Source: a virus
Direction: 5' to 3' (one strand)
DNA length: 53,203 nt
Virus record (IMG/VR): IMGVR_UViG_3300025096_000026
Location: 1 to 53,203 of that record
A model generated the notes under the pieces. It worked only from the letters and a program-made list of their open reading frames with translations, had not been told where the DNA came from and searched no databases. This document shows, one piece after another, positions 1 to 53,202 of this stretch. Both the position numbers and the translations under genes were made by a program. Numbering within the stretch: position 1 is the stretch's first letter; each line of letters starts with the position of its first letter.

Positions 1-530
1 GCAAAACTCCAAGCCCCAGTAGTAGTCCGAGCAGAGTTGTTAACGGGAGCACCCTCGGGACGCAGATCAGAAATATCAAGCCCAACGCCACAACGACGTT
101 TAAACAAGTTAGCAAGGTCTTTGCCAGCGTCCATAATGGACGAAACACTATCCTGTGGATTGTCGACAACCACACAGTTAGATAAAGATACATTAACATA
201 ATCATTTCCTATTCCCATCATCGGAGAGCCCTGCGGGACAACGTACTTAAAATCCTTTAGGTAAGAATAAATCTCTTTTTCTGTAAGGTGTGGGCCTGCT
301 CGATGAGCATAAGTGCTACCAGCTATAGGTCCTTTGCGCTCAGACTCAAACTTCTTTTCAATTTTAGCAAACTCTTTAGCAATACGCTTATGCATGTCGT
401 CCGGGGTTCTTTCCATAAAGTTTCCCTTTTTATCACGCAAACAATATTTTGTCATAAAGACATTCGTTGCCAGCTCATCTCCACCAAAGTATTCAAGAGT
501 GGCTTCTCTTACTACGCTTTCCTCAAACAT
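1..530 (-). CDS. Ribonucleotide reductase catalytic subunit, N-terminal part (cut by window edge)
   Basis: The first about 176 codons of a ribonucleotide reductase large chain, which makes deoxynucleotides for phage replication. The reading frame is open from the ATG at 530 to the window edge, so the C-terminus is missing. The N-terminus has the pattern LEYFGGDELA...KYCLRD...TPDDMHKRIAKEFA, followed by SNCVVVDNPQDS with one of the redox-active cysteines, then CGVGLDISDLRPEGAPVNNSA. The TPDDMHKR segment resembles adenosylcobalamin-dependent (class II, NrdJ-type) enzymes, but the class-defining C-terminal part is not visible. A GGAGGG ribosome site lies in the last codons of the helicase gene. 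One usual glycine of the GGVGLD motif is a cysteine here. Confidence 0.85.
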   Translation of the reverse strand, partial: MFEESVVREATLEYFGGDELATNVFMTKYCLRDKKGNFMERTPDDMHKRIAKEFAKIEKKFESERKGPIAGSTYAHRAGPHLTEKEIYSYLKDFKYVVPQGSPMMGIGNDYVNVSLSNCVVVDNPQDSVSSIMDAGKDLANLFKRRCGVGLDISDLRPEGAPVNNSARTTTGAWSF

Positions 531-26144: not shown

Positions 26145-27890
26145 CTAGTCATTCATGTCGCGAACGATCACGAGACCATACATATCTGGACGCACCATCT
26201 TCTTGGCGTAACGGGTCATGACACCCTTGCGAGGTACGAAGTCCTCGACGCCGAAGATAGTAGGCGTGGTCTGCAGCGGCACATAAGGTGCGTACACATA
26301 GCCACTCTCAAGGAAGCTACTTCCACGTCGGCCCACAAGGAGCAGATTACGCGGGAAGTAAGGATCGACGATAACGTCGAACTTCTTCGAAAGCGAACCA
26401 ACCTTAACAGCACCCGCGTCGCCGCGGTCGCTATCAGCAGTCACATTGGCACGGAAGCCAGCCGTGAACTCAAGGATGTTGGCAACTTCAGGTGAACACA
26501 CCACGAAGTTAGCAGCACCACGGAGAGTCTTGCGGTGGATCTGTGCGGAGACGTCATTGATGGTCTCAATGAGAGTCTCATACCACTCACTCACGTTACC
26601 CGTGAAGTCTGGCGTAGTGGACGAACCAATTTCTGCACCAGTTTCGCGATTAACGAAGCGACCAGCAGCGCGGGACCAGTAACGAACGCCAGCGGTTGCG
26701 CCGCGGACGAGGTCGTCAAGGATCTCACGATCGATCTCAAGGGCGATCTGCTCAGACAGAATCTGAGTAAGTTCGACCTCGGCATCAAGGTTGTGGTAGG
26801 CGTTAAGATCTTGTCCCAACTCCGGGGTCCACTTGGCCTTGAGCTTCTTAGTGATCGCGGTGACGGCCACCGAGTCGACCTTGATGTCGATCTCAGGGAT
26901 TCGCTCACTGCCTTCCAGTCCCCACGTCGTGGATGCAGCCACCGAACCAACGGCGCCTCCAGCCTGGAAGCGGTCAACAGACGGGAATGACAACGGATGT
27001 GTCTGGCCCGGGTGACCGTCAATGGTACCCTGCTCGATCGACGAAGTCAACACAGCAGCAGTACTGGAACCCAAGAAACCAACGATAACGTTGTTATCGC
27101 GGTCCGATCCGGAGAACTGAGTCAAACGACGCAGCTGCGAACCAGAAACAGTGCTTGTGTCAAAAGTAAGAGCAATCAAATCATCATAGTTAAACTGAGT
27201 ATTCGAAATCGTACCCGTCAGCTCTGTGCGCTGAAGTTCATAGAACGCCACAACAGACGAACCAGACGTAAGGCCCGGATCATACTGGCAGAGACGATCC
27301 AGAGTTGCATCACCATTACCATAAGTACCCTTCTGCAGCGGAGTAACCTTAGCAGAAAGATTAAAGTTAATATTGGTTGATCCAGTTGGAGAGGAGAAAC
27401 CGTTGTTAAGAGCATACGGTCCACGCTCTGCCCAAACGCCCGTCAGCGTAATGCCGCCGGTGATTTGGGAACCAACTTCGTCGCCACCATAAATCGACTC
27501 ATCAGCAATGTTGCCGAGGCGCGATGTAATAGTGTCGTTTGGTCCTAGATTTGGCGAATACACGAAATCCAGGAAGAAGATGAGGCCACTGGGGAGACTC
27601 ATCGGCTGAACGCTAACGAGATCGTTGGCGATCAGATTGCCGAAAACACGGCGAACGAGGGGGAATGCGACAGCCGCAAAGCCCTCAACGTCGCCAGCAG
27701 CCATGCTGGACGACTCACGGAGTAGCTCTTTTGCTTGGTTCTCAAGCAATCGGGCCATACCGTTCCGATTGGCATCATCGCCGATACCTTCTAAAAGGCC
27801 CGTCTGTTCCCATTTGGAAATCAGAGCAGAACCTTCCGCAGAAAGGTCACGATTGACAATACCTTCGGTTAATTTTTGTACAATAGACAT
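26145..27890 (-). CDS. Major capsid protein (T4 gp23-like)
   Basis: A 581-residue precursor of the main head protein. It has the gp23 opening (ALISKWEQTGLLEGI...ARLLENQAKELLRESSSM), the segment AFPLVRRVFGNLIANDLVSVQPMSLPSGLIFFLDF, and the C-terminal PYVPLQTTPTIFGVEDFVPRKGVMTRYAKKMVRPDMYGLVIVRDM. A propeptide is expected to be removed by the gp21-type protease after an L/I-x-E site; LRE near residue 58 is a candidate. T4 gp23 has 521 residues, so there is a modest insertion. ATG 27890 has a strong AGGAGG site. Confidence 0.95.
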   Translation of the reverse strand: MSIVQKLTEGIVNRDLSAEGSALISKWEQTGLLEGIGDDANRNGMARLLENQAKELLRESSSMAAGDVEGFAAVAFPLVRRVFGNLIANDLVSVQPMSLPSGLIFFLDFVYSPNLGPNDTITSRLGNIADESIYGGDEVGSQITGGITLTGVWAERGPYALNNGFSSPTGSTNINFNLSAKVTPLQKGTYGNGDATLDRLCQYDPGLTSGSSVVAFYELQRTELTGTISNTQFNYDDLIALTFDTSTVSGSQLRRLTQFSGSDRDNNVIVGFLGSSTAAVLTSSIEQGTIDGHPGQTHPLSFPSVDRFQAGGAVGSVAASTTWGLEGSERIPEIDIKVDSVAVTAITKKLKAKWTPELGQDLNAYHNLDAEVELTQILSEQIALEIDREILDDLVRGATAGVRYWSRAAGRFVNRETGAEIGSSTTPDFTGNVSEWYETLIETINDVSAQIHRKTLRGAANFVVCSPEVANILEFTAGFRANVTADSDRGDAGAVKVGSLSKKFDVIVDPYFPRNLLLVGRRGSSFLESGYVYAPYVPLQTTPTIFGVEDFVPRKGVMTRYAKKMVRPDMYGLVIVRDMND

Positions 27891-27917: not shown

Positions 27918-29072
27918 TTATTTATTCAAACCTGCTAAACGCAGCATACGATCCATCTTAGGATCGCGTTTTGCCGTGTTGTTTTTCTTAGAATTGATCA
28001 AAAGCGATGTAGGTCTCTGAACTGCTTCACGAAGTGTCTGTGGGCGTACACGGGGATCAGCCGTTGCCCCCACTGCGTTTTGAATTGTTTCATAGATCAT
28101 ACTTGCTTCTTCAACAGAAGTGGCGGATTGAACAGCTTCGACAATTTGATTTTTTTGTCGCTCATTCAAGGAGGCGCTGCTAAGTGCCTTGTTTTGATAA
28201 ACAAGCTTGGCGTTTTCCAAGTTCAGCTGAGTCAGCTGAGTCTTGGATTCAGTTAAAAGGGCATATAGCTCTTTTAGTGATTCTTTAAGTTCAACGACGC
28301 GGGACTCCTCCAGCGTGTCGTCGGGCACCACATCAGGTGCCGTTGATGCATCTTCTTCGATTTCTTCTTCTTCTTCCAGGTGAGCACCCTGGGCCTTGGC
28401 CATGGCATCGTTGTTGGCTTGCTCAATGCTGTTGTCGGCAGAGTTAATAGATGACCATCCCTGTGGTCGAGGGACCATGTCAACAACCAGATCTTCAATA
28501 AGATCGGCCAGCATTTCTTCAGTAAGATTGATGTCTTCGTCTTCTTCTAGATTTTTCATCGCTGCATGCGACTCCTCTTCGGCAGCCGCTGAGCCAGCGT
28601 CGGTGGTATGAGTCATGTCAACGGCGGTTTCGCCAGCTTCTTCGCCCCCGGCGCTCTCAGATTCGCCCGGATCTAGAAAAGTGGTGTCATCATCCACCCC
28701 TTCACTCAACTCCTCCGCTACTTCAGTTGCAACCATTAACGAAGCAGGATCAATTTCTTCCTGATCGATGCGCTCTTTGAGGGCATCAAAATCAATTTCC
28801 ACTAAATCCGCCTCTTCTGGGGCACCCAATTCTTCAGTCTGAAAAGCATAGGGAACATCTTCAGTAAAAGTAGCATCGGCTGCCGCAACAGCAGAGGCCT
28901 CTGGGTCCTCCAGACCCAGGCCGAGATCAAGCTCGTCCTGTTCTAAAAGGGTGTCGAGGGCGCCCTTAACCTCGGCCGAATACTTCTCTAATACAGCATT
29001 TTCGGCGTTTTTAAGTGCGGCTTCCTTAAGGGCTTTAGCGTCAACAATCGCTTCTTCTAACAGTGAAGACAT
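27918..29072 (-). CDS. Prohead core scaffold protein (T4 gp22-like position)
   Basis: A 384-residue, strongly acidic, helical protein directly upstream of the capsid gene, where T4 encodes its main scaffold gp22. The N-terminus SSLLEEAIVDAKALKEAALKNAE and the coiled-coil ESLKELYALLTESKTQLTQLNLENAKL fit a core protein. The C-terminus (MLRLAGLNK) is similar to that of the 334-residue protein encoded at 35990-36994. I chose the ATG at 29072 because it has a GGAG site 7 bases upstream; an in-frame ATG ten codons earlier lacks one. Confidence 0.75.
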   Translation of the reverse strand: MSSLLEEAIVDAKALKEAALKNAENAVLEKYSAEVKGALDTLLEQDELDLGLGLEDPEASAVAAADATFTEDVPYAFQTEELGAPEEADLVEIDFDALKERIDQEEIDPASLMVATEVAEELSEGVDDDTTFLDPGESESAGGEEAGETAVDMTHTTDAGSAAAEEESHAAMKNLEEDEDINLTEEMLADLIEDLVVDMVPRPQGWSSINSADNSIEQANNDAMAKAQGAHLEEEEEIEEDASTAPDVVPDDTLEESRVVELKESLKELYALLTESKTQLTQLNLENAKLVYQNKALSSASLNERQKNQIVEAVQSATSVEEASMIYETIQNAVGATADPRVRPQTLREAVQRPTSLLINSKKNNTAKRDPKMDRMLRLAGLNK

Positions 29073-29104
29073 AGAATTACTCCAAATCTGACATCGCGTC
29101 AAAA

Positions 29105-35540: not shown

Positions 35541-35993
35541 TCACCTACTTTCTTTCTTTGCTATTTCATTGAGATGAACATCCCAATGCCGTTTGGCGCC
35601 ATTGAAGAGGCCCGAAATGTCCACCCCGGCGTCGCTTGGGGCCACTCCACTCAAAGGGGCTGCCTGTTGTCCTGGAGATCCTTGGGCCGGGGCGGGCGTC
35701 GTTCCCTCGAACAAGTCCACGCCGTTAAAGCCGTCGCCGCCGATGGCCGCCATTAATTTTGCTTTATGCTGTTTTAGGCTATCACTCTGCTCAGTTGTGA
35801 ATGCATTCCGTCTAAGACGCTCCACCATTGGATCTCCTTGCGGTGGCGCGCTGGCCACCACTTGCGGTGGGGATGAAACTCCTTTGGTTACTTCGGATAT
35901 AATTCCAGATAAAATCCCTTCCTCAAAAATGACTTCTTTGATACACTCTTTAATAAGAGGCTTTAAAATTTTCTTCAATTCTGTTTTTTTCAT
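35541..35993 (-). CDS. Unknown virion-associated protein with amphipathic leader
   Basis: A 150-residue protein. The N-terminus KKTELKKILKPLIKECIKEVIFEE is an amphipathic Lys/Ile/Leu/Glu helix similar in style to the leaders of the four proteins at 51779-53202. The rest is Pro/Gly/Ala-rich and probably flexible (SSPPQVVASAPPQGDP, TTPAPAQGSPGQQAAPLSG), with a short helical end (AKRHWDVHLNEIAKKESR). The ATG overlaps the upstream stop (ATGA). Location between prohead genes and S21 suggests a head protein. Confidence 0.65.
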   Translation of the reverse strand: MKKTELKKILKPLIKECIKEVIFEEGILSGIISEVTKGVSSPPQVVASAPPQGDPMVERLRRNAFTTEQSDSLKQHKAKLMAAIGGDGFNGVDLFEGTTPAPAQGSPGQQAAPLSGVAPSDAGVDISGLFNGAKRHWDVHLNEIAKKESR

Positions 35994-36999: not shown

Positions 37000-37599
37000 T
37001 TATTCTCCCACAATGTCGTTTAATAAATTAATTATTTTGTTTTTCTTTTCAACGTGCTCGTTCATGAGCTTGTTTTCGCTAAGTCCCATAAAGGCGCCGG
37101 GTGTCGACGGCTCCGAAACGATATCGAAGCAGATGAGTTGAAAGTCATCTTCAACGATTGTTTGTCCTTGCCGCTCAGTGACCGACCCCATTCCACGAGA
37201 AGAGATACCGATCTTAACACCAGCATCCACTAGCGAACGCAGGATTTGCCCTGCGGGAGTGTCCAACACCTTGCACTTACCCATAACCGTCATGCCATCC
37301 ATCCATATATCTGTAACCATATGCGAGACATTAACAAGATTAATGATTGAAGAGTCAGGGTGGTCAAGTTCGCCCAGGGCGCGGTTGTCGTCGACAATAC
37401 TCTTATATCGATCTACTTCTCGCCGCAAGACACCTTCAGGGTATACGCGCTTGTTGCCATTTTCAGTGTTGCACTTCTGCATGGGACCTGTGATAAACAT
37501 GGCCCCTTCCCGAACCATCCTCTTCTCGGCTTCAGTCAGAAGATCCTGACAGACACCGCCTTCGCATAGTTCATAAAATTCTCGGAGAAGTTGGGGCAT
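37000..37599 (-). CDS. Prohead core protease (T4 gp21-like)
   Basis: A 199-residue serine protease that matures the prohead by cutting capsid and core proteins after L/I-x-E sites. The gp21 signature is clear: ITGPMQKCNTENGNKRVYP, LGELDHP with catalytic H80, and VKIGISSRGMGSV with the catalytic serine at 133-134, followed by FDIVSEPSTPGAFM. The length fits gp21 (about 210). It is encoded with portal, core and scaffold genes in T4 order. Confidence 0.92.
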   Translation of the reverse strand: MPQLLREFYELCEGGVCQDLLTEAEKRMVREGAMFITGPMQKCNTENGNKRVYPEGVLRREVDRYKSIVDDNRALGELDHPDSSIINLVNVSHMVTDIWMDGMTVMGKCKVLDTPAGQILRSLVDAGVKIGISSRGMGSVTERQGQTIVEDDFQLICFDIVSEPSTPGAFMGLSENKLMNEHVEKKNKIINLLNDIVGE

Positions 37600-37602
37600 A
37601 AT

Positions 37603-37908
37603 TTATTCCTCTTCCGCGGCGGGCTCTCCCATGGGGCCGCTGCCACTAAAGCCGCCTTCGGGGGGAGGCCCATCGGGGGCGCCCATGACTTGGTCAATTG
37701 CATCTCTGGCCGCGGCCATTCCCGCAGCAAACGCCTCTTCGGGAGAAAGCTGACTGATGTCATCAACATGAACCTCTGTGCCTGGGGCGCTAATATCAAT
37801 TGCTTCGCCATCCATTTCGCCGCATTCGTCAAGCTCCTCGCCACGATTCACTGTCTCGTTTAAGAAGTATCTTGGGTCTATTCTTTTTACATTTTTTCTG
37901 CGTGCCAT
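37603..37908 (-). CDS. Prohead core-like small acidic protein
   Basis: A 101-residue acidic protein with a basic start RRKNVKRIDPRYFLNETVNR and an Asp/Glu/Gly/Pro-rich remainder (DDISQLSPEEAFAAGMAAARDAIDQVMG). FLNE at residues 15-18 fits the L/I-x-E consensus of gp21-type proteases. In T4 the genes between portal and protease encode small core proteins gp67 and gp68; this gene has the same place, so a prohead core role is likely, though sequence similarity is not evident. Confidence 0.6.
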   Translation of the reverse strand: MARRKNVKRIDPRYFLNETVNRGEELDECGEMDGEAIDISAPGTEVHVDDISQLSPEEAFAAGMAAARDAIDQVMGAPDGPPPEGGFSGSGPMGEPAAEEE

Positions 37909-38310: not shown

Positions 38311-38937
38311 CTATATGTTGTCCGGCATATCGACAGTGCGGCCTTTGTTGTTATCCCGTAAATACTCTTCTAGTTCTGCTGTTATATCCCAATCAGGATC
38401 AATAGGCTCGCCGGGGGCTTTTTTGCCGATGGCCGCGATTATAAATTTTATAAATTCCTTTTCAACGTCCCCGTCGAGCATACGCGCAACATGATCGTCC
38501 ATATCCAATTTAGATATATTGCCTCCCGGTCGCTCCTCGTCGTCGACCTGATACATTTTCAAAATAAAGTCTGCACTACTGTTAGCTCTTGCGAAGATCT
38601 TTTTAGCGGAGCTAAGACCAGGAATTTCACCAGTTAATACATCGAAAAAAGCTTTTCTATTTTTATATTGTATTCCACAATTAAGTGTTGCCAATAAGTC
38701 TCCCCACGTTTCAAGATCCCCTTGCCTTGATAACAGCTCTGGAAATTTTTTCTCACAATAATCTTGTTGAAGTGTGGCATCCATTTTATCAAATCCTTTA
38801 GCAAGTTTGTTTCTAACGTTTCCCAACATGCCGATGGCCTTATCGCGCATAGATTGCGGCGGAGCGGGTGGATTGGGCGGATTCTGTTCTTGCAAAAACT
38901 CGCGCCACCCTTCCATTATGAGCTTCATCTCACTCAT
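38311..38937 (-). CDS. Probable internal head protein with capsid-targeting-like leader
   Basis: A 208-residue protein starting MSEMKLIMEGWREFLQEQ, then a Pro/Asn linker (NPPNPPAPPQS) and a helical domain (DKAIGMLGNVRNKLAKGFDKMDATLQQDYCEKKFPELL). The leader resembles the T4 capsid-targeting sequences of internal proteins, which end in L/I-x-E; FLQE would be the cut site for the protease encoded at 37000-37599. It lies in the portal-protease interval. No enzyme domain recognised. Confidence 0.6.
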   Translation of the reverse strand: MSEMKLIMEGWREFLQEQNPPNPPAPPQSMRDKAIGMLGNVRNKLAKGFDKMDATLQQDYCEKKFPELLSRQGDLETWGDLLATLNCGIQYKNRKAFFDVLTGEIPGLSSAKKIFARANSSADFILKMYQVDDEERPGGNISKLDMDDHVARMLDGDVEKEFIKFIIAAIGKKAPGEPIDPDWDITAELEEYLRDNNKGRTVDMPDNI

Positions 38938-39447: not shown

Positions 39448-40252
39448 TGGGACGCAATTCCTTTACAAGTTCCTGTGTCTTCAGCACCTTACTAAGGTCG
39501 GCCTCAGTGAAGTCGCGCTTACGAAATTCTTCTAAATAGGCTAGAACTTCCTGTGATTTTTTAACAATCAAGGGCTCAAAATCGGGATCCTCGGTCCGCT
39601 CAATCACCCCCTTAAGTCGGGATAACTCTTCGTTAAGATAAAGTCGCAACTCAAACCCATCATCGGCAAAGCTCGTGATGTATCTATTCAATAAATCTTT
39701 TTGTTCTTTTAAGAGGGAGTGATATTTGTTGTTAAACTTTTGGATAAAAGAGTTGTATGTGATGCTATCTAATGCTTCTAAGCGTTCCGATAGAGCATTT
39801 TCATTTATGCTGCTCATCCTATCAACCACAGCTTGCTCAAATAAAACACGCTTTTTCACACTAGTTTTATTGGTAAAGATAGCATTAACAGACGCCAAAG
39901 ACTTAAAATTGGGCACAAAAGTGCTCCATATTTCTTGACCCAAATTCTTATTCATTGCTGAAATTAATTTAGACTGTGTGTCAAACAATGCATTTTCATC
40001 TAATTGTGCGTACGCTACTTTGGTCTCGTGCAGGAGTCTCTCGGCAATCTTGGGCTGAGTGTTGGTGGTTTCTAGTAAAATGCGATAAAGATCTAACTCT
40101 TGTGCTAAGAGCTTGCCGGGCGTAAAAAATTCCTTAAGAATCGGCATGATTTCGTTTTTTCGATCGAGATTCTTCTCAACAATGGCCTTAGTAAAGGCTC
40201 GCGTTAATGTTTCATAAATAAATGCTGTATTGCGCTTCTTGTTATGTTTCAT
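39440..40252 (-). CDS. Helical protein following the portal gene, unknown
   Basis: A 270-residue, highly charged helical protein: RNTAFIYETLTRAFTKAIVEKNLDRKNEIMPILKEFF, then HSLLKEQKDLLNRYITSFADDGFELRLYLNEELSRLKGVIER. Coiled-coil is likely in the last 100 residues. It overlaps the portal gene by 11 bases at its start and the next gene by 8, so it is coupled to head assembly genes. I do not recognise a T4 counterpart; a core or portal-vertex protein is the simplest guess. Confidence 0.7.
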   Translation of the reverse strand: MKHNKKRNTAFIYETLTRAFTKAIVEKNLDRKNEIMPILKEFFTPGKLLAQELDLYRILLETTNTQPKIAERLLHETKVAYAQLDENALFDTQSKLISAMNKNLGQEIWSTFVPNFKSLASVNAIFTNKTSVKKRVLFEQAVVDRMSSINENALSERLEALDSITYNSFIQKFNNKYHSLLKEQKDLLNRYITSFADDGFELRLYLNEELSRLKGVIERTEDPDFEPLIVKKSQEVLAYLEEFRKRDFTEADLSKVLKTQELVKELRPND

Positions 40253-42155
40253 CCTTTTCCGCCTCTTTCTTCTCTAATTGTTCTACAAGTCTTCGAACTT
40301 GCACAGTATTTTCAACCAAGCGAGTTTCATTCTTGTTATAAATAGATTCCTTTCGACGTTTCGAACCATATCCCAGTGATGCAGCACTCATGTCGCCCAA
40401 CGGATTACCCATACCAGAACCAGCATTTTGACGATAAGTGTTGGTCTCGGGTCCTAACGAACTCCTGGTCTCCCGACGGAAGGGGCCCCCATAGGTCCTC
40501 CCATCACGCGGACCATCATCACGCCGGCCGGGTGCCGTAAGGAGCGCAGTATCATCTGCGGCTTCGGCATCTGCACCGAGGTCACCCGCCTCTGCGCCAC
40601 CAAGATCACCCAGGTCACCACCCAGGTCACCCTCGTCCCCCAGGTCTCCCAAATCATCCAGATCCCCTAGACCACCTCCGGCTTCATCAGCGGCGGCCTG
40701 CTCGGTGACCGATTCTAGTGCTTGCTGATACTTACGATCATAAAAGGATTCACGTTGATTACGCAAGAACTCCTCATCAGAAAGACCAAGAATGTTGCTG
40801 GCGATCCAACGCTTGCTGTAGGTGCCCTCCGGAACACTTCCGGCGGTATCGAATTTGGTTCGCAAGTATTCTAAAGTTTGCAACTCAGCCAAACGAGAAG
40901 GGTTGTTTAACGACAAATCAAAACTTATAAGATCCTCGCCGCGGAAGCCAAGAGTGTATAAGTGAACAACTGCTACTTTTTCTAGCTCCGTAATAAAGGG
41001 TCGCTGCAGCCTCTGAATGGTGCGTGCAAACCGGATGTCTTTCTGGGCTAATGTTGTTTTATCTTCCGTGTCCCCCTCAAGATTTGTCAAATAAGATTGA
41101 GGAATCTTAATCGCCGAGAACAGTTTATCGCGCATGTATTTCACATCTTCGATGTCGTCCAAAGATTTAGCTCCCGGAAGTGAAGTGATGTCAGAACCGA
41201 TGCCACCTCGCATGGGAATAAAGTAGTCTTCTTCAAGCGACAAAGGATTGTAACGAAGGTCGACGCGGCCCGTAGTAGCATCAACCAGAGCATTTCTCTT
41301 CATCTCACTTTTAACTTTCTCCATGTACTGCGCAACATCATTTGGCGGAATGTTGCCCACATCAATTTTGAATACTCGACGCTCCGGAGCGCGAACAACG
41401 CGGTAGGCAATCATCGCATCTTCTAGGAGCGTGAGCTGGCGCCATATGCGGCGAGCAGGGTCAAAGACCGAAGTGCCGTAAGGGGCATGCCTATCGTTTC
41501 CTAAGACACGAAAATGTGCAATCTGCCAGTTCTCAAAAGTCATTCCGGCACCATTCCACTGATATTGAATATAATTGGGATTTGTGGGGTCTTGCCCCTC
41601 CAATCTCTCCACCTCCGTATTGGGGAGGCCGATAAGAGAAGTCACTCCCAGGTTCTCGTCTACATCGAGATACATAAAGAGATCCCCGTATTTACACATC
41701 GAGCGGCTCCAACCAAATGCATTAGCCTCGATGTTTAAAACATCATAAAACAGAGAAGTTAAAATAGTTTTAATTTCCAGATTCATGCATGAAATGTTAA
41801 GAAGCCGGTCAAACTCATTTGAAGTAGTCATCTCATCTGCATAAATGTCAAGGGCCGCGGCAAGCTCCGGTGTGTATTCCATCTGTTCGAAGTCAATATA
41901 TCTCTCAGCCCTGTTTTGGTTACGGAAGGCGGCCGAGGTCAACATGTTGAAATTTTGCGACATGTTGTTGTCGGAACGACGGAATTCCTGACCACTCATA
42001 GAGCGGAATCTATAACGGTATTTATCTAAATCATTCCGGCGCTCCTGATGGGCTAGCTGCGCCCGATAATTAATAATCGGGCCCGAGAGTAATCGCGTGA
42101 GCCTCCTAAATAAAGGCGCTCCTGGGTTTCTGGGGTTTCTTTCGTTTTTGGCCAT
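40242..42155 (-). CDS. Portal protein (T4 gp20-like) with acidic repeat
   Basis: A 637-residue portal, the ring at the special head vertex through which DNA passes. Typical segments are FEQMEYTPELAAALDIYADEMTT, LRVVRAPERRVFKIDVGNIPPNDVAQYM, YNPLSLEEDYFIPMRGG and KIPQSYLTNLEGDTEDKTTLAQKDIRFARTIQRLQ. It is longer than T4 gp20 (524) because of a C-terminal extension: residues about 493-539 are a low-complexity repeat of GDLGD units, followed by a basic, probably flexible end. It starts 2 bases after the terminase stop. Confidence 0.93.
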   Translation of the reverse strand: MAKNERNPRNPGAPLFRRLTRLLSGPIINYRAQLAHQERRNDLDKYRYRFRSMSGQEFRRSDNNMSQNFNMLTSAAFRNQNRAERYIDFEQMEYTPELAAALDIYADEMTTSNEFDRLLNISCMNLEIKTILTSLFYDVLNIEANAFGWSRSMCKYGDLFMYLDVDENLGVTSLIGLPNTEVERLEGQDPTNPNYIQYQWNGAGMTFENWQIAHFRVLGNDRHAPYGTSVFDPARRIWRQLTLLEDAMIAYRVVRAPERRVFKIDVGNIPPNDVAQYMEKVKSEMKRNALVDATTGRVDLRYNPLSLEEDYFIPMRGGIGSDITSLPGAKSLDDIEDVKYMRDKLFSAIKIPQSYLTNLEGDTEDKTTLAQKDIRFARTIQRLQRPFITELEKVAVVHLYTLGFRGEDLISFDLSLNNPSRLAELQTLEYLRTKFDTAGSVPEGTYSKRWIASNILGLSDEEFLRNQRESFYDRKYQQALESVTEQAAADEAGGGLGDLDDLGDLGDEGDLGGDLGDLGGAEAGDLGADAEAADDTALLTAPGRRDDGPRDGRTYGGPFRRETRSSLGPETNTYRQNAGSGMGNPLGDMSAASLGYGSKRRKESIYNKNETRLVENTVQVRRLVEQLEKKEAEKDET

Positions 42156-42157
42156 TT

Positions 42158-43744
42158 TTATCCTTTAATCAATCCTAAATATTGCTCGTTAAAGCTTTGT
42201 CCTTCGCTAGTCCTCTGAGATTCTTTGGTAGTTTGATGTTCTCGCATACCGGGTATCGTGGTTGAAATCCTTGTATCGGAGGTTGAAATCGATGACAAAA
42301 ACTGTTTACTGTATTCCACATTTTTCTGATTCTCAACAATCACCGTATCTCTTACCCAGCATCCAATTGCGAAGGACATAACCAAGTCGTCATTATAACT
42401 ACGCATTGCCTGAGGTCTTCCCGCTTGCCAAATAAAAGTTTTCATTTCTGAAAGCAGACGGTTAGAGTTAATCTTAATTAGTTTGTTTCTCATAAACTCT
42501 TCCATCTTGGCGACGATAAGAGGCCTCGTTTTAGATGAGGTCGTAAAGCCTGGTATAACATTAGTTTGCCATTGAGCCGAGACAGGGTCGACGTATTGAT
42601 GGTCTCCTTTGGAAGAATGATATAGATTAGGATACCCTTTATCCAACAATTTTTTAAGTACTGCAAAGCCTATGTTATTATTTTCTATAACCAGCATAGG
42701 ATTTCCATACTCGCCAGCAACGCTCCACAAGATCTCTGCAAATTCATCAGGTGTAGGCTTGCCAACGTATTCAGCCACTACCTCCATTGTTTCTAGTTCA
42801 AAAACGTGAAAGGCGCTGTTGTCTTTCCCGTCGCCCCGGGCGACATCAGCACAAATCAAATGAGCCTTTTCAGGATTGAAGTGTTTCCAAATCCAATAAT
42901 TACGGTCGAACCCAGTACGATATTCAGGTGTCACTACTCTTTCTAAATACCATTGAATGTCATCGGGATGAATAACAGTCTCCCCTGAGACATTAAAGTT
43001 GCACTCCAATTCTTGAGCAATTTGTCGTTTCGACATGTTGCGCGTCTCTTTATCAAACCAAGCCTTGTCTCTATCTGGATGGGTGTCCCACATAAGAGTG
43101 GTCATATAAAAGTCGTTTGTTCCAGCCTCGGCTTCGACACAATTTTGATGGAACCAGTTGCCTACGCCGTTGGGAGTAGAGAGAGCAATGCAGCGACCAC
43201 CAGTAGACAGGGTGGGATACAACGCAGTCCAAAGCTCATCTAGTTTTTCAACGTGAGCAGCCTCATCAATCACCAACAAAGAAAGGGCCTCAGATCGGCC
43301 GGCGTCGCCCGATGTCGAAGAGCCCTTAATTTGTGACCCGTTTGAAAGTTCAAATGATGTACGATTGTCGACAGTAATAGACGCAATTTGCATCCACTGT
43401 GGGAGGTTCTTAATGATGGCTTTGACTTTTTTGACCAGGTTGGTGGCTGTCTGCAGTTTTGTCGCAACCACCAAAATGTTTTTATCTCGATGAAACAACA
43501 TCAGCCAACTAACATAAGCTGCTGTAATCGTAGAGATTCCCAGCTGCCGCGCCTTGAGAATAATGTTAAACCGATAATCGGTATAGTCTTTTAGAAGCTG
43601 CTCCTGATAATCATACGCCCTGAACGGAATCGTTCCCCTTTGAGGGTGGGAGATGCGGGCATAATTGGTTGTAAAATAAACCGGGTCTTTGCCCGCCTTG
43701 ACAATCTCTTTTAAAACTTCTTCTTTGGTGAGTACGTCGGGCAT
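42158..43744 (-). CDS. Large terminase subunit (T4 gp17-like)
   Basis: A 528-residue DNA packaging motor. The ATPase has the Walker A variant LKARQLGIST at 63-72, Walker B LLVIDEAAHV with D160-E161, and a coupling ALSTPNG motif. The nuclease domain has ICADVARGDGKDNS with D300, LVIENNNIG with E354, and a later YNDDLVMSFAI with the third acid. The length is slightly below T4 gp17 (610). It is encoded just before the portal gene. A small terminase was not identified with confidence. Confidence 0.95.
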   Translation of the reverse strand: MPDVLTKEEVLKEIVKAGKDPVYFTTNYARISHPQRGTIPFRAYDYQEQLLKDYTDYRFNIILKARQLGISTITAAYVSWLMLFHRDKNILVVATKLQTATNLVKKVKAIIKNLPQWMQIASITVDNRTSFELSNGSQIKGSSTSGDAGRSEALSLLVIDEAAHVEKLDELWTALYPTLSTGGRCIALSTPNGVGNWFHQNCVEAEAGTNDFYMTTLMWDTHPDRDKAWFDKETRNMSKRQIAQELECNFNVSGETVIHPDDIQWYLERVVTPEYRTGFDRNYWIWKHFNPEKAHLICADVARGDGKDNSAFHVFELETMEVVAEYVGKPTPDEFAEILWSVAGEYGNPMLVIENNNIGFAVLKKLLDKGYPNLYHSSKGDHQYVDPVSAQWQTNVIPGFTTSSKTRPLIVAKMEEFMRNKLIKINSNRLLSEMKTFIWQAGRPQAMRSYNDDLVMSFAIGCWVRDTVIVENQKNVEYSKQFLSSISTSDTRISTTIPGMREHQTTKESQRTSEGQSFNEQYLGLIKG

Positions 43745-48348: not shown

Positions 48349-48595
48349 AATCAAAGTTGGGCCATATGAGCAACTGATCTTCTATGTATTCAACTATCTC
48401 AGGCTCGGACTCAAACCCCTCGGCATACTGCATTTGGTTTATGGGAAAGTAATGCCACTCTAGCCATTGATAGTAAAACCTCTGAAATTCTTCCCTGTAG
48501 GTGCCGGGGCGCAAGCGGCGCTTAGCATAATACCTAACTGGTAGGGGTACTGTTACCTCATTGGGTAACTCTTGCAAAGCCTCCGTTTTTGTCAA
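48278..48595 (-). CDS. Unknown protein overlapping the J-domain gene end
   Basis: Up to 105 residues, no family recognised. It is rich in aromatics: YREEFQRFYYQWLEWHYFPINQMQYAEGF, then IVEYIEDQLLIWPNFDFKIV. The start is uncertain: TTG 48595 and TTG 48577 are in frame, the second just after a GGAGG, and there is no ATG nearby. It overlaps the SbcD-SbcC gene by up to 38 bases and is antisense to the last 71 bases of the J-domain gene. Confidence 0.55.
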   Translation of the reverse strand: MTKTEALQELPNEVTVPLPVRYYAKRRLRPGTYREEFQRFYYQWLEWHYFPINQMQYAEGFESEPEIVEYIEDQLLIWPNFDFKIVDQDGGNYKMFQSNNELLAV

Positions 48596-51500
48596 TTGAG
48601 ATCTCCAAATCTACGATGTCTTTCAACGAATCCACATGCGAAATCAGAATAACTGTTTTGAAATACATCTTAATTAGCTGGAGGATCCTGATGAACCCCT
48701 CCATGTTCTCGGCATCCAAAGCAGTTCCGGGCTCATCCAGAATAAAAATGTTGCCCTTGGGAAGTGACGACACGGACAATAGCGCCAGGCGAATTGCCAT
48801 GGCAGCAACGGTTTTCTCTGCGCCAGAACCCATCTCGATAGGCCGAGGGTCATGTTTGGGGTGCTTGATGAGGATGTCCAGCTTGCGGCCATCCTCTTGA
48901 AAGAAAGCATCAAAATCAACAATGTTAGATAAAACCTTGGCTATCTCTCCATTGATAACTGGCAACCGCTTTTTGATAATGTCATAAGCAATCCCATTAG
49001 AGTGAGTACATCGCATGAATAAATCATACGCCGCATATTCCTCTCGTATCTCATCAAGTTCTTTTCTCTTCTCTTTCAGGTCTTCAACTTTCTGCTCCAT
49101 TGAGCCTAGCTGGCGATGGTGCAAATTAATGCTTTCTTCGGTGTCGGTAATCTCGGACTGAAGTTCTAAAATCTTTTTGTCGACCTCGGTGCGCGAGTTG
49201 ATGAGTTTCTCAATGTTTTTGATTAAATCCTTTTTCTCTTCATACAAATTAATCTTCTCGTTGGTTGCGCGGAGGTTATCGCGGTATCCCTTAATCTTTG
49301 CATAGAGTTTCTCAATAGAAACTTTGTTATCGCGCTTCTCAATCTCGATGTTATTCTTTTGAATGATGTTATCATTATAGTTCTCGATCAAGCTGATCAT
49401 CTCAACAGAATTAACTGAGATAACTTTTGTTTTGTAATTCTTTGCCTCTTCGATTCTTTCTATAATCTCGATCTCTAGCGCGGGCAATTCAGTAGTGGCC
49501 ACGTTTGCATCATGGATAAACTGACAGGTGGGGTATTTATTGCCACAAGGTACTTCATCAAGAAGCTCAATCTTCTTAAACATCGCTTTATAGTCGTTAT
49601 CCATAAGGCGCGCCTTATTAACAGTATCCTCGTATTTCTGCTTAAATTCATCATAATCTTGCTTCTGAGCCAAGAGATCTTCAATGTCAATGGTTGTGAG
49701 AAAATCATCATACTCTTTAAGTTTTTCGTCATAATTCTCGTTCTCTTGCTTAAGCTCCACAATATTAACGTCAGTACTGTCAATCTTGCTTTCTAAGATA
49801 GCCCGGGTCTCTAGCAGATTCTTGATGTCCAATCGTTCTGCTGGAATGGAATCAATCTGTGTCGTTAAATCGGATTGCTCCGATGACGCGTCCGACAAAA
49901 GTGACCTTAATTGTTCACAACTCTCAACCTCTTGATCTAGAACCTTCTGTGCTTCGTCTCGCTGAACTTCTGCGATCGCGATGTTATTACTATAGTCAAC
50001 GTCGCCGACGCGGCGAAGCACTGCTTTTAAGTCCCCACTGTCCTCGTGAGCTAGTTTAAACTTTTTCTCAAAGATGTCTAAATCTAAGAACTTAGCAAGG
50101 ATTTCCTTCCGACGAGTAGAACCCTCCTTAATGAACGACAAACTATCGAGCTGACTGGACATAGAGGTCAACAGGAAGTCTTCTACTGTGCCAAAACGCT
50201 TTCGAATATGAGCATCCGTCTCGTTACGAGTAGTGCCATTGAGACTCGTTTCTTCGCCCACTGCGGGGTCTAGGCCGCTAAAGTCTAAAAACGTGCGCGC
50301 TTCGTTGGTCACTTCGCCCTTAAGTTTCTTTACATATTTCTCCGACTGACGCTCAATGGTATAAGTCTTGTCTCCAACCTGCAACTCTAAGCGCCCCATG
50401 CAGTCTTTCTTATTTTGGTTAATAATGTTATAATTCTTGCGTTCATTCTTTGAGGTGGTGTTAAACATGGTATACAATAATCCATCAATAATGCTGGACT
50501 TTCCGGAGAAATTCTTGCCGAAGATGCCCACGATACCGTTCAAATTCGTAAAATCTACACTGTTTCCCTCGCCATAATTGAATAGGTTGTCCCACTCAAA
50601 CTTGTTGAGGTTCCAATTCACGTTACGTGCAACTTCCTCGGTCTCCTCAATCTTGGAGTTGTACTTTCGATTGAGTTCGAATACGCGCTCAAGCATCTGC
50701 TCGGGGGGCTGGTAATCAACTAAGTACTCACGGATGAGGTCTTCTTGGACTCCTTTGTCTCGAAGGTTTTCCACCTTGAAGCCGGTGCCAATCTCCACAG
50801 TGCCGCGTTCTCCAGCAGCTCTGTTAAGAAATGTAATACTCTCGGGCTTGAAGCGATGCTTGGCTACCTCGACAGCCTTGCGCATGACGTCAAGCGGAAG
50901 ATTGTTATTACTCACAAGACGCAACCGCGAGGTAGGAGGAATTTTTGTTCCCCTTGGCATTCGCCCCTTTGGCGTGAGTTCTATTGTTACGAATGGTTTG
51001 GGATTAAGCAAAACATGGTGACTCACGCGAAATTCGTTTTTGTCTTCAATTTCCCAAATCAAAAATCCCTTATCATTTGTCTCGCCATGATTCTGTTGAA
51101 CGGTTGAACCGCAATACCTCACGCGGCCCTCGGCGTCTAGGATTTGATTTGTCTTGTGAATGTCGCCAAGTAATGCATAGTCGTGACCGGCGAAGACGCC
51201 GATGTCGTGATCACCGTGAGTCATCACCCAGCCGGTGTCGGTTTTGACACCAGACACAGAGCCGTGATAAAGTGCGATGTTGATTCGTGAGTTGTCGCTT
51301 GGTGCGACCCAGTTGTCTTCATCAAATACAGATAGCACATTGAGTGCGAGATCCGGCTCTAGAACAGTTTCTCCAGCGTTCTTGAGCAGATGTAGGTCCG
51401 GGAGGTTCAGAGCCTTCACAATGGGCGACAGGGCGTCCTGACGGGTACTGTTCTTCAGGTTGCCGTCGTGGTTGCCTAAGATGATGTAAGTTGGTGCGAT

Positions 51501-51710
51501 TTTCGCTAGATTTGAAAAGAAGTCGGAGCAAAGCTCAACGAACTCTGGTGAAATCTGTGTCTTGGTGTGGGCGATGTCGCCGCAGTGAACAATGTAGTCC
51601 ACGTTTTCTTTTCGTAGTGTTTCGTAAAGTTGTTCAAATACCTTCTTGTATTCGTAATGAAATTTTAAATTCTTTATGTGCGTGTCCGCAAGGTGTGCTA
51701 TTTTATACAC
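48558..51710 (-). CDS. Fused SbcD-SbcC / Mre11-Rad50 (T4 gp47-gp46) nuclease-ATPase
   Basis: A single 1050-residue chain. Residues 1-340 are an SbcD/Mre11-type phosphoesterase: LADTH (D9, H11), HCGDIAH (D45), LGNHD (N80, H81), H149, and GVFAGHDYALLGDIH (H176, H185). From about 375 it is SbcC/Rad50: GIVGIFGKNFSGKSS (Walker A 398-405), long coiled coils around a PCGNKYPTC hook near 722-729, the signature EMGSGAEKT near 960, and Walker B IFILDEPGTALD near 988. In T4 these are two genes, 46 and 47, that resect DNA ends for recombination with UvsX. The start is GTG 51710, behind a near-consensus promoter. Confidence 0.93.
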   Translation of the reverse strand: MYKIAHLADTHIKNLKFHYEYKKVFEQLYETLRKENVDYIVHCGDIAHTKTQISPEFVELCSDFFSNLAKIAPTYIILGNHDGNLKNSTRQDALSPIVKALNLPDLHLLKNAGETVLEPDLALNVLSVFDEDNWVAPSDNSRINIALYHGSVSGVKTDTGWVMTHGDHDIGVFAGHDYALLGDIHKTNQILDAEGRVRYCGSTVQQNHGETNDKGFLIWEIEDKNEFRVSHHVLLNPKPFVTIELTPKGRMPRGTKIPPTSRLRLVSNNNLPLDVMRKAVEVAKHRFKPESITFLNRAAGERGTVEIGTGFKVENLRDKGVQEDLIREYLVDYQPPEQMLERVFELNRKYNSKIEETEEVARNVNWNLNKFEWDNLFNYGEGNSVDFTNLNGIVGIFGKNFSGKSSIIDGLLYTMFNTTSKNERKNYNIINQNKKDCMGRLELQVGDKTYTIERQSEKYVKKLKGEVTNEARTFLDFSGLDPAVGEETSLNGTTRNETDAHIRKRFGTVEDFLLTSMSSQLDSLSFIKEGSTRRKEILAKFLDLDIFEKKFKLAHEDSGDLKAVLRRVGDVDYSNNIAIAEVQRDEAQKVLDQEVESCEQLRSLLSDASSEQSDLTTQIDSIPAERLDIKNLLETRAILESKIDSTDVNIVELKQENENYDEKLKEYDDFLTTIDIEDLLAQKQDYDEFKQKYEDTVNKARLMDNDYKAMFKKIELLDEVPCGNKYPTCQFIHDANVATTELPALEIEIIERIEEAKNYKTKVISVNSVEMISLIENYNDNIIQKNNIEIEKRDNKVSIEKLYAKIKGYRDNLRATNEKINLYEEKKDLIKNIEKLINSRTEVDKKILELQSEITDTEESINLHHRQLGSMEQKVEDLKEKRKELDEIREEYAAYDLFMRCTHSNGIAYDIIKKRLPVINGEIAKVLSNIVDFDAFFQEDGRKLDILIKHPKHDPRPIEMGSGAEKTVAAMAIRLALLSVSSLPKGNIFILDEPGTALDAENMEGFIRILQLIKMYFKTVILISHVDSLKDIVDLEISIDKNGGFARVTQ

Positions 51711-51778: not shown

Positions 51779-52108
51779 TTATTTCCTGAGTGTGGGTTCC
51801 ATCCACTCTTCTGTGTCGACCTTAAGAATGTCGAAATCAAAGTCAGCGTTTTGGCGGAAATCTTTAATAAGATCCATAAGTTTATCGCCGGTTCGGATAT
51901 CTTTCATCGCAAATCTGCTCTTCTCGATGAGGTCATCATATAATTCTTGAGACAATGATCCCTCAGCGCGCGAGCGTCTTAAGGCATTGGCGAAAGCTGC
52001 TCCCCAAGCGTCCTTACTGGGGAGACCTACGACGGGGCGCGAGTCATCAAAAGACCGCGTGATCTCTTCCTTGATAATCTGTCGTAGTTTTGCTTTTGAG
52101 ATCTTCAT
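51779..52108 (-). CDS. Leader-family small protein 4 (109 residues)
   Basis: The most diverged of four proteins sharing the leader: MKISKAKLRQIIKEEITRSF. The body is unlike the others: PSKDAWGAAFANALRRSRAEGSLSQELYDDLIEKSRFAMKDI, then DFDFDILKVDTEEWMEPTLRK. No domain recognised. It is the last gene before the SbcD-SbcC promoter. The leader contains I-K-E, which fits gp21-type cleavage. Confidence 0.7.
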   Translation of the reverse strand: MKISKAKLRQIIKEEITRSFDDSRPVVGLPSKDAWGAAFANALRRSRAEGSLSQELYDDLIEKSRFAMKDIRTGDKLMDLIKDFRQNADFDFDILKVDTEEWMEPTLRK

Positions 52109-52112
52109 TTTA

Positions 52113-52394
52113 TTATTTCATGCCATAGAGAGCATAGATGCCGGCTTCATTGCTTTCGAGTCCAAGCTCTATCAAGTGCTGTTTGATTGCCTCGTACTCG
52201 CCCGGGATTCCATTGGACTCTAAATAGTTACTGAATTTTTCACTCATTGCATGTAGGGGGCGTAAAATGGTAAGCGCTTCAGCGGACGGACCAGAGGGTT
52301 CATCTTCTGGTACTTCTGGGTATTGTTCTATGTCTGCCGTATACTCAAGCTCTTCTCTAATAATTTCTTTGAGTCTTTGTTTAGTGATTTTCAT
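52113..52394 (-). CDS. Leader-family small protein 3 (93 residues)
   Basis: Starts MKITKQRLKEIIREELEY, then an acidic Pro/Glu linker (QYPEVPEDEPSGPS) and a helical end (ALTILRPLHAMSEKFSNYLESNGIPGEYEAIKQHLIELGLESNEAG). No domain recognised. The leader is nearly identical to those at 52430 and 52948 also at DNA level, while the bodies are unrelated, as if one 5' cassette had been joined to different proteins. Confidence 0.7.
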   Translation of the reverse strand: MKITKQRLKEIIREELEYTADIEQYPEVPEDEPSGPSAEALTILRPLHAMSEKFSNYLESNGIPGEYEAIKQHLIELGLESNEAGIYALYGMK

Positions 52395-52429
52395 TGTTAA
52401 TCTTCCTCCGGAGGATCATCGCGATCCGG

Positions 52430-52846
52430 TCACTTCTCTCCCTCTTCCAGATCGCGCCAGCGACCTGTTTTAAGCCCTCGGCGAAGTCTGTCCACCTTTT
52501 TATCCGTGGGAGCGCTCACCTTTACGGTTTGTGCGGAATCGTCGTCACGCAGGAGTGACTTTAGAGGAATAATTTCGACCAAGCCGAGGGCCTCTTCCTT
52601 TAACCTGCTTTGAACGTCCATTGCGCGATCAATATCTTCAAAACGCTTGGCCATCTCGGGATCTTTTACGGTGTCCGCACTCCAGTTCCCGCGGCCTTTG
52701 CGAGTCAATTGGAGCAAGTAATCGCTGGTGCCATCAAACCGAAGCACAAAAGGTTTCTGCTCCGGCTTTAATTTGAAACCCTCCCACTCCCACTTCGTAA
52801 GCTCTTCTTTGATAATCTCTTTGAGCCTTTGTTTAGTGAGCTTCAC
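52430..52846 (-). CDS. Leader-family small protein 2 (138 residues)
   Basis: Starts MKLTKQRLKEIIKEELTKWE, followed by a folded-looking body: GFKLKPEQKPFVLRFDGTSDYLLQLTRKGRGNWSADTV, a helix PEMAKRFEDIDRAMDVQSRLKEEALG, and a basic end. No family recognised. The start is GTG 52846, which overlaps the stop of the cysteine-rich gene as GTGA with a GAGGA site upstream. Confidence 0.7.
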   Translation of the reverse strand: MKLTKQRLKEIIKEELTKWEWEGFKLKPEQKPFVLRFDGTSDYLLQLTRKGRGNWSADTVKDPEMAKRFEDIDRAMDVQSRLKEEALGLVEIIPLKSLLRDDDSAQTVKVSAPTDKKVDRLRRGLKTGRWRDLEEGEK

Positions 52847-52944
52847 TTACAACATTCCTCATTCACACAGCTGCAACAACCACAGCAACAACAACAATGT
52901 TTATTGTTAAATAAGTTTGCTAATTTATGTAAGATATTTTTCAT
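52843..52944 (-). CDS. Cysteine-rich 33-residue protein
   Basis: A short gene from ATG 52944 to TGA 52843. The N-terminal half KNILHKLANLFNNKH is a basic amphipathic helix; the second half is CCCCCGCCSCVNEECCK with ten cysteines in 17 residues. It fits exactly between two leader-family genes, 3 bases after one stop and overlapping the next GTG start. The cluster could bind metal or be lipid-modified or disulfide-linked; none of these is shown. No family recognised. Confidence 0.6.
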   Translation of the reverse strand: MKNILHKLANLFNNKHCCCCCGCCSCVNEECCK

Positions 52945-52947
52945 TTG

Positions 52948-53202
52948 TCATTCACTCCTTTTAATTTTTACTTCACTCTCCAACAAAGCCTTCGTTTCCT
53001 CTAAGGCACTGATTGCCTCACGAACTTGGGGATGTTGTTCCAAATTGCGAAATGCAGCCTTCTGGATTTTTTGACGTAACTGATCGGCCAAGTCGGCAAG
53101 TGCCGTTATATCATTAAGCAATGCGCCGGGGCTGATGTCATCGTCTTCCTTAAGTAGCTCTTCCTTGATAATCTCTTTGAGTCTTTGTTTGGTGATTTTC
53201 AT
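52948..53202 (-). CDS. Leader-family small protein 1 (84 residues)
   Basis: Starts MKITKQRLKEIIKEELLKED, then DISPGALLNDITALADLADQLRQKIQKAAFRNLEQHPQVREAISALEETKALLESEV, a continuous helical or coiled-coil body. No domain recognised. The ATG lies one base inside the window edge, so its promoter and ribosome site are not visible. First of four consecutive genes with the same leader. Confidence 0.7.
   Translation of the reverse strand: MKITKQRLKEIIKEELLKEDDDISPGALLNDITALADLADQLRQKIQKAAFRNLEQHPQVREAISALEETKALLESEVKIKRSE

Follow-up and report, generated by a model that had tools for sequence, protein, structure and literature searches.

A leader peptide shared by unrelated small proteins of a T4-like phage is a probable capsid-targeting propeptide

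In phage T4, a short N-terminal capsid-targeting sequence (CTS), which gp21 removes, takes the internal proteins and Alt into the prohead core; Alt is an ADP-ribosyltransferase packaged in the head. In the T4 record, the N-termini read MKTYQEFIAE|A for IPII and IPIII, MKTFKEF...TITE|A for IPI, MAKINELLRE|S for gp24, and MELITELFDE for Alt, where the cut positions marked on IPI, IPII, IPIII, and gp24 are those of the T4 literature. The CTS is 10-19 residues long and brings unrelated proteins into the core (PMC9026906, PMC3012670). The first 10 residues of IPIII suffice, with residues 4 and 7 mattering for targeting and residues 8 and 10 for processing (PMC9026906), and the T4 internal proteins are diverse defense proteins whose sole common part is the CTS (PMC3012670). 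The head proteins of the giant phages SPN3US and phiKZ also carry N-terminal propeptides, removed after x-x-E by a diverged gp21 relative, and two SPN3US proteins, gp53 and gp54, have an identical 15-residue N-terminus but are otherwise diverged (PMC5694885).

The window studied here, the whole 53,203-base stretch of an IMG/VR-type virus record, has the gene set of a T4-like contractile-tailed phage, with nearly all genes on the minus strand. They include a gene for the large terminase (42158-43744) and, on that strand, genes for the portal protein gp20 (40242..42155; phrog_213, E 6.6e-75), a homolog of the T4 head maturation protease gp21 (37000..37599; phrog_207, E 8.1e-58), and the major capsid protein gp23 (26145..27890; phrog_138, E 2.5e-72), whose N-terminal propeptide ends in KELLRE|SSS at a site conserved in relatives. 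Directly upstream of gp23, also on the minus strand, lies a probable gp22-like scaffold gene (27918..29102), judged by position and by its acidic, LxE-rich product, which likely starts at the methionine of MSSLLEEA. Genes for a head-tail adaptor, tail sheath, tail tube, and hub are followed by those for UvsX, a DnaB-like helicase, an exonuclease, and a DNA polymerase. The tail sheath (20814-23744, minus strand) has 976 aa; its T4 counterpart, gp18, is shorter, with 659 codons in the record of that phage. Among cultured phages, the nearest gp21 proteins belong to Flavobacterium phage immuto, Methylophilales phage Melnitz, and cyanophages and are only about 43% identical, so the collection searched contains no close cultured member of this phage group; the phage is probably marine, judging by these relatives.

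A sequence-only reading of the window had drawn attention to four minus-strand open reading frames between 51779 and 53202, said to start with a common 16-residue leader, MK[IL][TS]KxxL[KR][EQ]II[KR]EE, and to diverge completely behind it. All four are real open frames and begin as claimed. Protein A (52948..53202, 84 aa; leader DNA at 53158-53202) starts with MKITKQRLKEIIKEE followed by LLKE|DDD, protein B (52430..52846, 138 aa, GTG start) with MKLTKQRLKEIIKEE, protein C (52113..52394, 93 aa) with MKITKQRLKEIIREE, and protein D (51779..52108, 109 aa) with MKISKAKLRQIIKEE. Their tails have no mutual BLAST matches, in line with the reported divergence. The length of the leader was refined to 15 conserved residues plus one hydrophobic residue, and in relatives the conservation often reaches an L-x-E at residues 17-22. 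The near identity of the leader DNA in three of the genes was confirmed: their first 45 bases agree at 38-40 of 45 positions (31-35 of 45 against the fourth gene), and the 45-base blocks flanking the leader DNA agree at 7-20 of 45, which is about chance. A six-frame motif scan found the leader nowhere else in the window.

None of the four proteins had a Pfam or PHROG match above threshold. Relatives of their tails were found in related records: the tail of A matches the C-terminal part of L005:10001-10498 with 87.5% identity over 56 aa, C has relatives in L002 (94%) and L003 (60%), and D has one in L002 (95%). The structural model of B is of poor quality (mean pLDDT 47, low confidence), with the leader modeled as a separate helix. 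Protein B and proteins of L005, L035, L016, and L010, whose middles differ, end in a common block, RLxxGxxTGRWxx, restricted to leader proteins within the locus set examined. Between genes A and B lies a 33-aa open reading frame (52843-52944, minus strand), MKNILHKLANLFNNKHCCCCCGCCSCVNEECCK, that is extremely Cys-rich. Directly downstream of the array, after a strong sigma-70-like site (51766-51737, minus strand; TTGACA, 18 nt, TATACT, 11/12), comes the gene for a fused gp47/gp46 (SbcD/SbcC) recombination nuclease (48558-51710, minus strand, 1050 aa), and the site suggests that the nuclease may be transcribed separately and early. Open frames of similar length (1040-1078 aa) stand at the match to this family in several related records.

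We collected further examples of this leader, termed class 1, by means of a protein search, a gp21 search, and a degenerate pattern of the leader DNA. The first scan gave at least 355 distinct proteins in at least 234 unrelated tail clusters and the second brought these numbers to at least 377 and at least 253, so that the proposed check, a search for the leader on other proteins of related phages, was borne out on a large scale. The consensus is MKITKxQLKQIIKEEL. In each of 36 long related records, the DNA pattern had one to nine exact matches, which within a record all lay on the same strand, and a reversed control pattern had none in the same records, which shows that the leader is not a chance occurrence. 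Among 84,980 cellular genomes (257 Gb), a single match was found, L354, binned with an Opitutia MAG; its leader genes of classes 1 and 2, which stand in a row, mark it as a phage contig itself. By tblastn with the leader or the whole protein, these leaders turned up in no cultured phage, a weak negative, as queries of 20-30 residues are insensitive, and none of the papers searched was found to describe them. The leader proteins are small (median 108 aa), and their tails are mostly acidic (median pI 5.1); in the window, A, C, and D have pI values of 4.2-4.9 and B of 8.9.

Behind the class-1 leader, a motif of the type cut by gp21 is concentrated in a narrow zone. [LIV]xE starts at residues 16-25 in 170 of the 234 clusters, compared with 21-40 for later 10-residue bins, and with a small residue following, [LIV]xE[AGS], the counts are 65 of 234 against 2-8. 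When residues 16-45 were permuted within each protein (2000 trials), LxE[AGS] occurred 13 times on average and at most 28 times, whereas 71 sites were observed in 247 clusters, a 5.5-fold excess; LxD, LxQ, and LxK were not enriched behind the leader. The commonest position is L20-x-E22. At the position of the T4 gp23 cut (FLTE|A), the gp23 proteins of the group read E-L-[LI]-[RK]-E|[AS] or Q-L-L-K-E|A. As this site and the one behind the leader are alike, the specificity that we infer for the gp21 of the group, L-x-E before a small residue, equals the motif behind the leader, and the gp21 of the window is a candidate enzyme for leader removal. The [LI]-x-E at the leader end in relatives is a predicted cleavage site. 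For the window, the sequence-only reading had pointed to an L-K-E and an I-K-E in the leader itself. One site, I-[KR]-E|E inside the leader, is common to A-D and is the sole candidate in B, C, and D; a canonical site behind the leader is found in A only (LKE|D). At the gp23 site, no protein of the group was seen with E in the P1' position.

Two further leader classes emerged from a search for relatives of the tails that lack the class-1 leader. Class 2, MKLIMENWRKFLxE, is found on at least 191 proteins in at least 118 tail clusters, and class 3, MARRKNVKRIDPRYFLxE, on at least 66 proteins in at least 43; LxE[AGS] stands no more than about 15 residues behind the class-3 leader in 19 cases, against 3 further on. 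The window has one gene of each on the minus strand: a class-2 gene between the portal and gp21 genes (38311..38937, 208 aa, beginning MSEMKLIMEGWREFLQEQ) and a class-3 gene directly upstream of gp21 (37603..37908, 101 aa, beginning MARRKNVKRIDPRYFLNETVNRGEELDE). Both sit in the head module, in the slot of the T4 core proteins gp67 and gp68. Just downstream of gp21, the product of 35541-35993 (minus strand), starting with MKKTELKKILKPLIKECIKEVIFEEG, has a basic amphipathic N-terminus that ends in an IFEE|G-like site and is possibly a fourth type of leader. In related phages, leader genes of different classes are packed together in tight arrays, with a median gap of 7.5 nt, and neither the late promoter (TATAAATA) nor sigma-70 motifs were enriched upstream of them. 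Fifteen tail clusters have more than one leader class. In the cleanest pair, L026:9396-9788 and L027:9592-9999, the proteins are 88% identical over 113 residues, but one begins with MKLIMENWKKFINEE and the other with MKITKQRLNEIIKEELQRTLSE, with the junction near the LxE. Such a natural exchange of leaders on one cargo supports the idea that the leader alone may be enough to send a foreign protein into the head.

The leader genes are also linked to head genes by occurrence and position. A gp21 gene is present in 34 of the 57 long records that carry a leader of class 1 or 2, and in 20 of the 21 leader records that are 130 kb or longer. Among the 23 leader records without gp21, 21 also lack gp23 and the other two have it near a contig edge, so these records look like fragments that lack the head module. 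In 20 of the 24 class-1 records with gp21, one or more leader genes lie upstream of gp21 on its strand and within about 16 kb, either adjoining it or at a distance of 0.5-16 kb. At 36 of 74 gp21 loci, the gene that ends no more than 80 nt upstream of gp21 has a leader of class 1 or class 3, and at 28 of 74 related loci a class-3 gene ends within that distance. The association of gp21 with the leaders could come in part from common descent inside one T4-like clade.

In 145 class-1 tails scanned, known domains were very rare, with single members matching LRR, FliG_C, PG_binding_1, or endolysin. Class-2 tails include NUDIX, Zeta-toxin and AAA_33 kinase, guanylate kinase, acetyltransferase, HD, DnaJ, C5 DNA methylase, M23 and M74 peptidase, and LysM domains. 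The model of a four-member class-2 family (pLDDT 66) had KptA/Tpt1 and DarT as its best structural matches, and this family has a predicted ADP-ribosyltransferase-like fold, KptA/Tpt1 and DarT being members of the NAD-using ADP-ribosyltransferase superfamily. The phage contig binned into the Opitutia MAG encodes another class-2 leader protein (L354:3854-5239, 461 aa, MEKFIEDWRRYLVE), a putative R-S-E ADP-ribosyltransferase by the motifs FRG, SSCSS, and EDE as judged by eye; it had no Pfam or PHROG match, and its C-terminal part had no relevant match among PDB sequences. The ADP-ribosyltransferase-like proteins, Zeta-toxin-like kinases, NUDIX hydrolases, DNA methylase, and murein peptidases among the relatives are all candidate effectors.

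These features resemble the T4 system in several respects. As with the CTS of IPI, IPII, IPIII, and Alt, a short N-terminal leader stands on unrelated small proteins in a phage with gp21, and T4 cuts after [LI]-x-E, where cleavage is predicted here from sequence. The pattern h-x-E-h-h-x-E of the T4 propeptides (YQEFIAE, INELLRE, ITELFDE) also fits LKEIIKE or LKQIIKE of class 1 and WREFLQE of class 2, but the pattern is loose, and the likeness to the T4 CTS (MKTYQEFIAE) is one of pattern that falls short of significant sequence identity, for class 1 in particular; WREFLQE of class 2 comes closest, and the class-3 leader resembles T4 less than the other two. The T4 IPI site (ITE|A) lies some residues behind the leader, as in most relatives here, and the cargo family with a predicted ADP-ribosyltransferase-like fold recalls Alt. 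However, the leader sequences differ from those of T4, at least three unrelated classes occur in one phage group and are mixed in its gene arrays, the set of cargos is far larger, and the tails are mostly acidic, whereas the T4 internal proteins are basic. The propeptides of T4 gp24 (MAKINELLRE|S) and gp23 (FLTE|A) are similar to the predicted cut of gp23 in this group at ELLRE|A/S, but they belong to shell proteins encoded by single genes, and those leaders are not interchangeable. The giant phages share with this system the removal of N-terminal propeptides by a gp21-type protease and, in gp53 and gp54, a shared 15-residue N-terminus; they differ in that their propeptides are mostly longer than 100 residues, their motif is AxE/SxE, and paralogs are few, as opposed to the hundreds of unrelated cargos found here.

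We think, with good confidence, that the class-1 leader is a capsid-targeting propeptide of the T4 type, as the sequence-only reading had proposed. The predictions of this proposal that sequence can address have come out in its favor: gp21 is encoded by the phage, LxE[AGS] is enriched, the gp23 site is alike, head genes are near, and leaders are exchanged. As an amphipathic helix (hydrophobic at I3, L8, I11, I12, and L16, charged elsewhere), the leader would bind the prohead core during assembly, so that anything fused behind it would become part of the prohead. The gp21-type protease would then cut after [LIV]-x-E, either at I12-x-E14 within the leader or, in most relatives, at an L-x-E at residues 17-25, and free the cargo inside the head. 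As leader and cargo are separate modules, unrelated genes gain or swap leaders. The four proteins of the window would then be small head cargo comparable to T4 IPI-IPIII, entering the host along with the DNA; that they stay in the head and are then injected is somewhat likelier than not. Once delivered, the cargo would probably act on host defense or takeover.

Other explanations have to be weighed against capsid targeting. The leader proteins may belong to the prohead core or scaffold, like T4 gp67, gp68, and gp22, and be degraded after incorporation. The class-2 and class-3 genes occupy the gp67/gp68 slot between portal and gp21, and some leader proteins encoded beside gp21 are rich in Lys and Ala and keep their position among relatives. 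Their tails are, however, extremely diverse (at least 253, 118, and 43 clusters for classes 1, 2, and 3), class-2 domains such as NUDIX, kinase, DNA methylase, murein peptidase, HD, and ADP-ribosyltransferase-like are unlike a degraded scaffold, and LxE[AGS] is enriched just behind the leader and not along the chain, so we regard this reading as rather unlikely. It also seems unlikely, and we place it lower, that the leader is a docking tag for another phage or host assembly, such as the tail, a replication compartment, a membrane, or a protease adaptor, with the LxE excess otherwise caused. Class-2 cargo does include enzymes that are usually pictured as cytoplasmic, and the assignment of the leader to the capsid is based on sequence; yet the precise enrichment of LxE[AGS], the match to the gp23 site, the gene positions, and the co-occurrence with gp21 point to the head, and the leader is charged, unlike a signal peptide.

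A quite different possibility is that the shared stretch matters as DNA, as a translation start enhancer, a recombination site, or a promoter, or is the trace of a recent duplication. The leader DNA identity in the window (31-40 of 45) would fit, as would the slightly greater likeness of leader DNA within loci than between them (0.80 versus 0.73). But genes with unrelated tails differ on average at 6.4 of 14 third codon positions and at 2.0 second positions, the similarity begins at the start codon with no conservation upstream, and the tails bear no sign of duplication, which makes this explanation very improbable. We rejected a DNA-level element on the third-position variation and the lack of upstream conservation. 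With third positions differing three times as often as second ones and residues swapped as S/T, K/R, and E/Q, selection acts on the leader peptide.

From a biological perspective, the capsid-targeting reading leads to a broader proposal, which to us could as well hold as fail: that a large, mostly uncultured T4-like group uses a modular delivery code in which at least three exchangeable leaders load many effectors per virion for injection. What is added to a known kind of system is the leader families, their interchangeability, and their scale. Should the leaders indeed serve in capsid targeting, the products of hundreds of uncharacterized phage genes could be predicted to be injected, each with a mature N-terminus that is predicted too, and proteins could be loaded into phage heads by means of new, exchangeable tags. 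What is known of which proteins phages inject, and how these are chosen, comes only from T4 and a few giant phages; if the leaders work as proposed, this question would become testable in metagenomes, from which injected effectors could be read directly.
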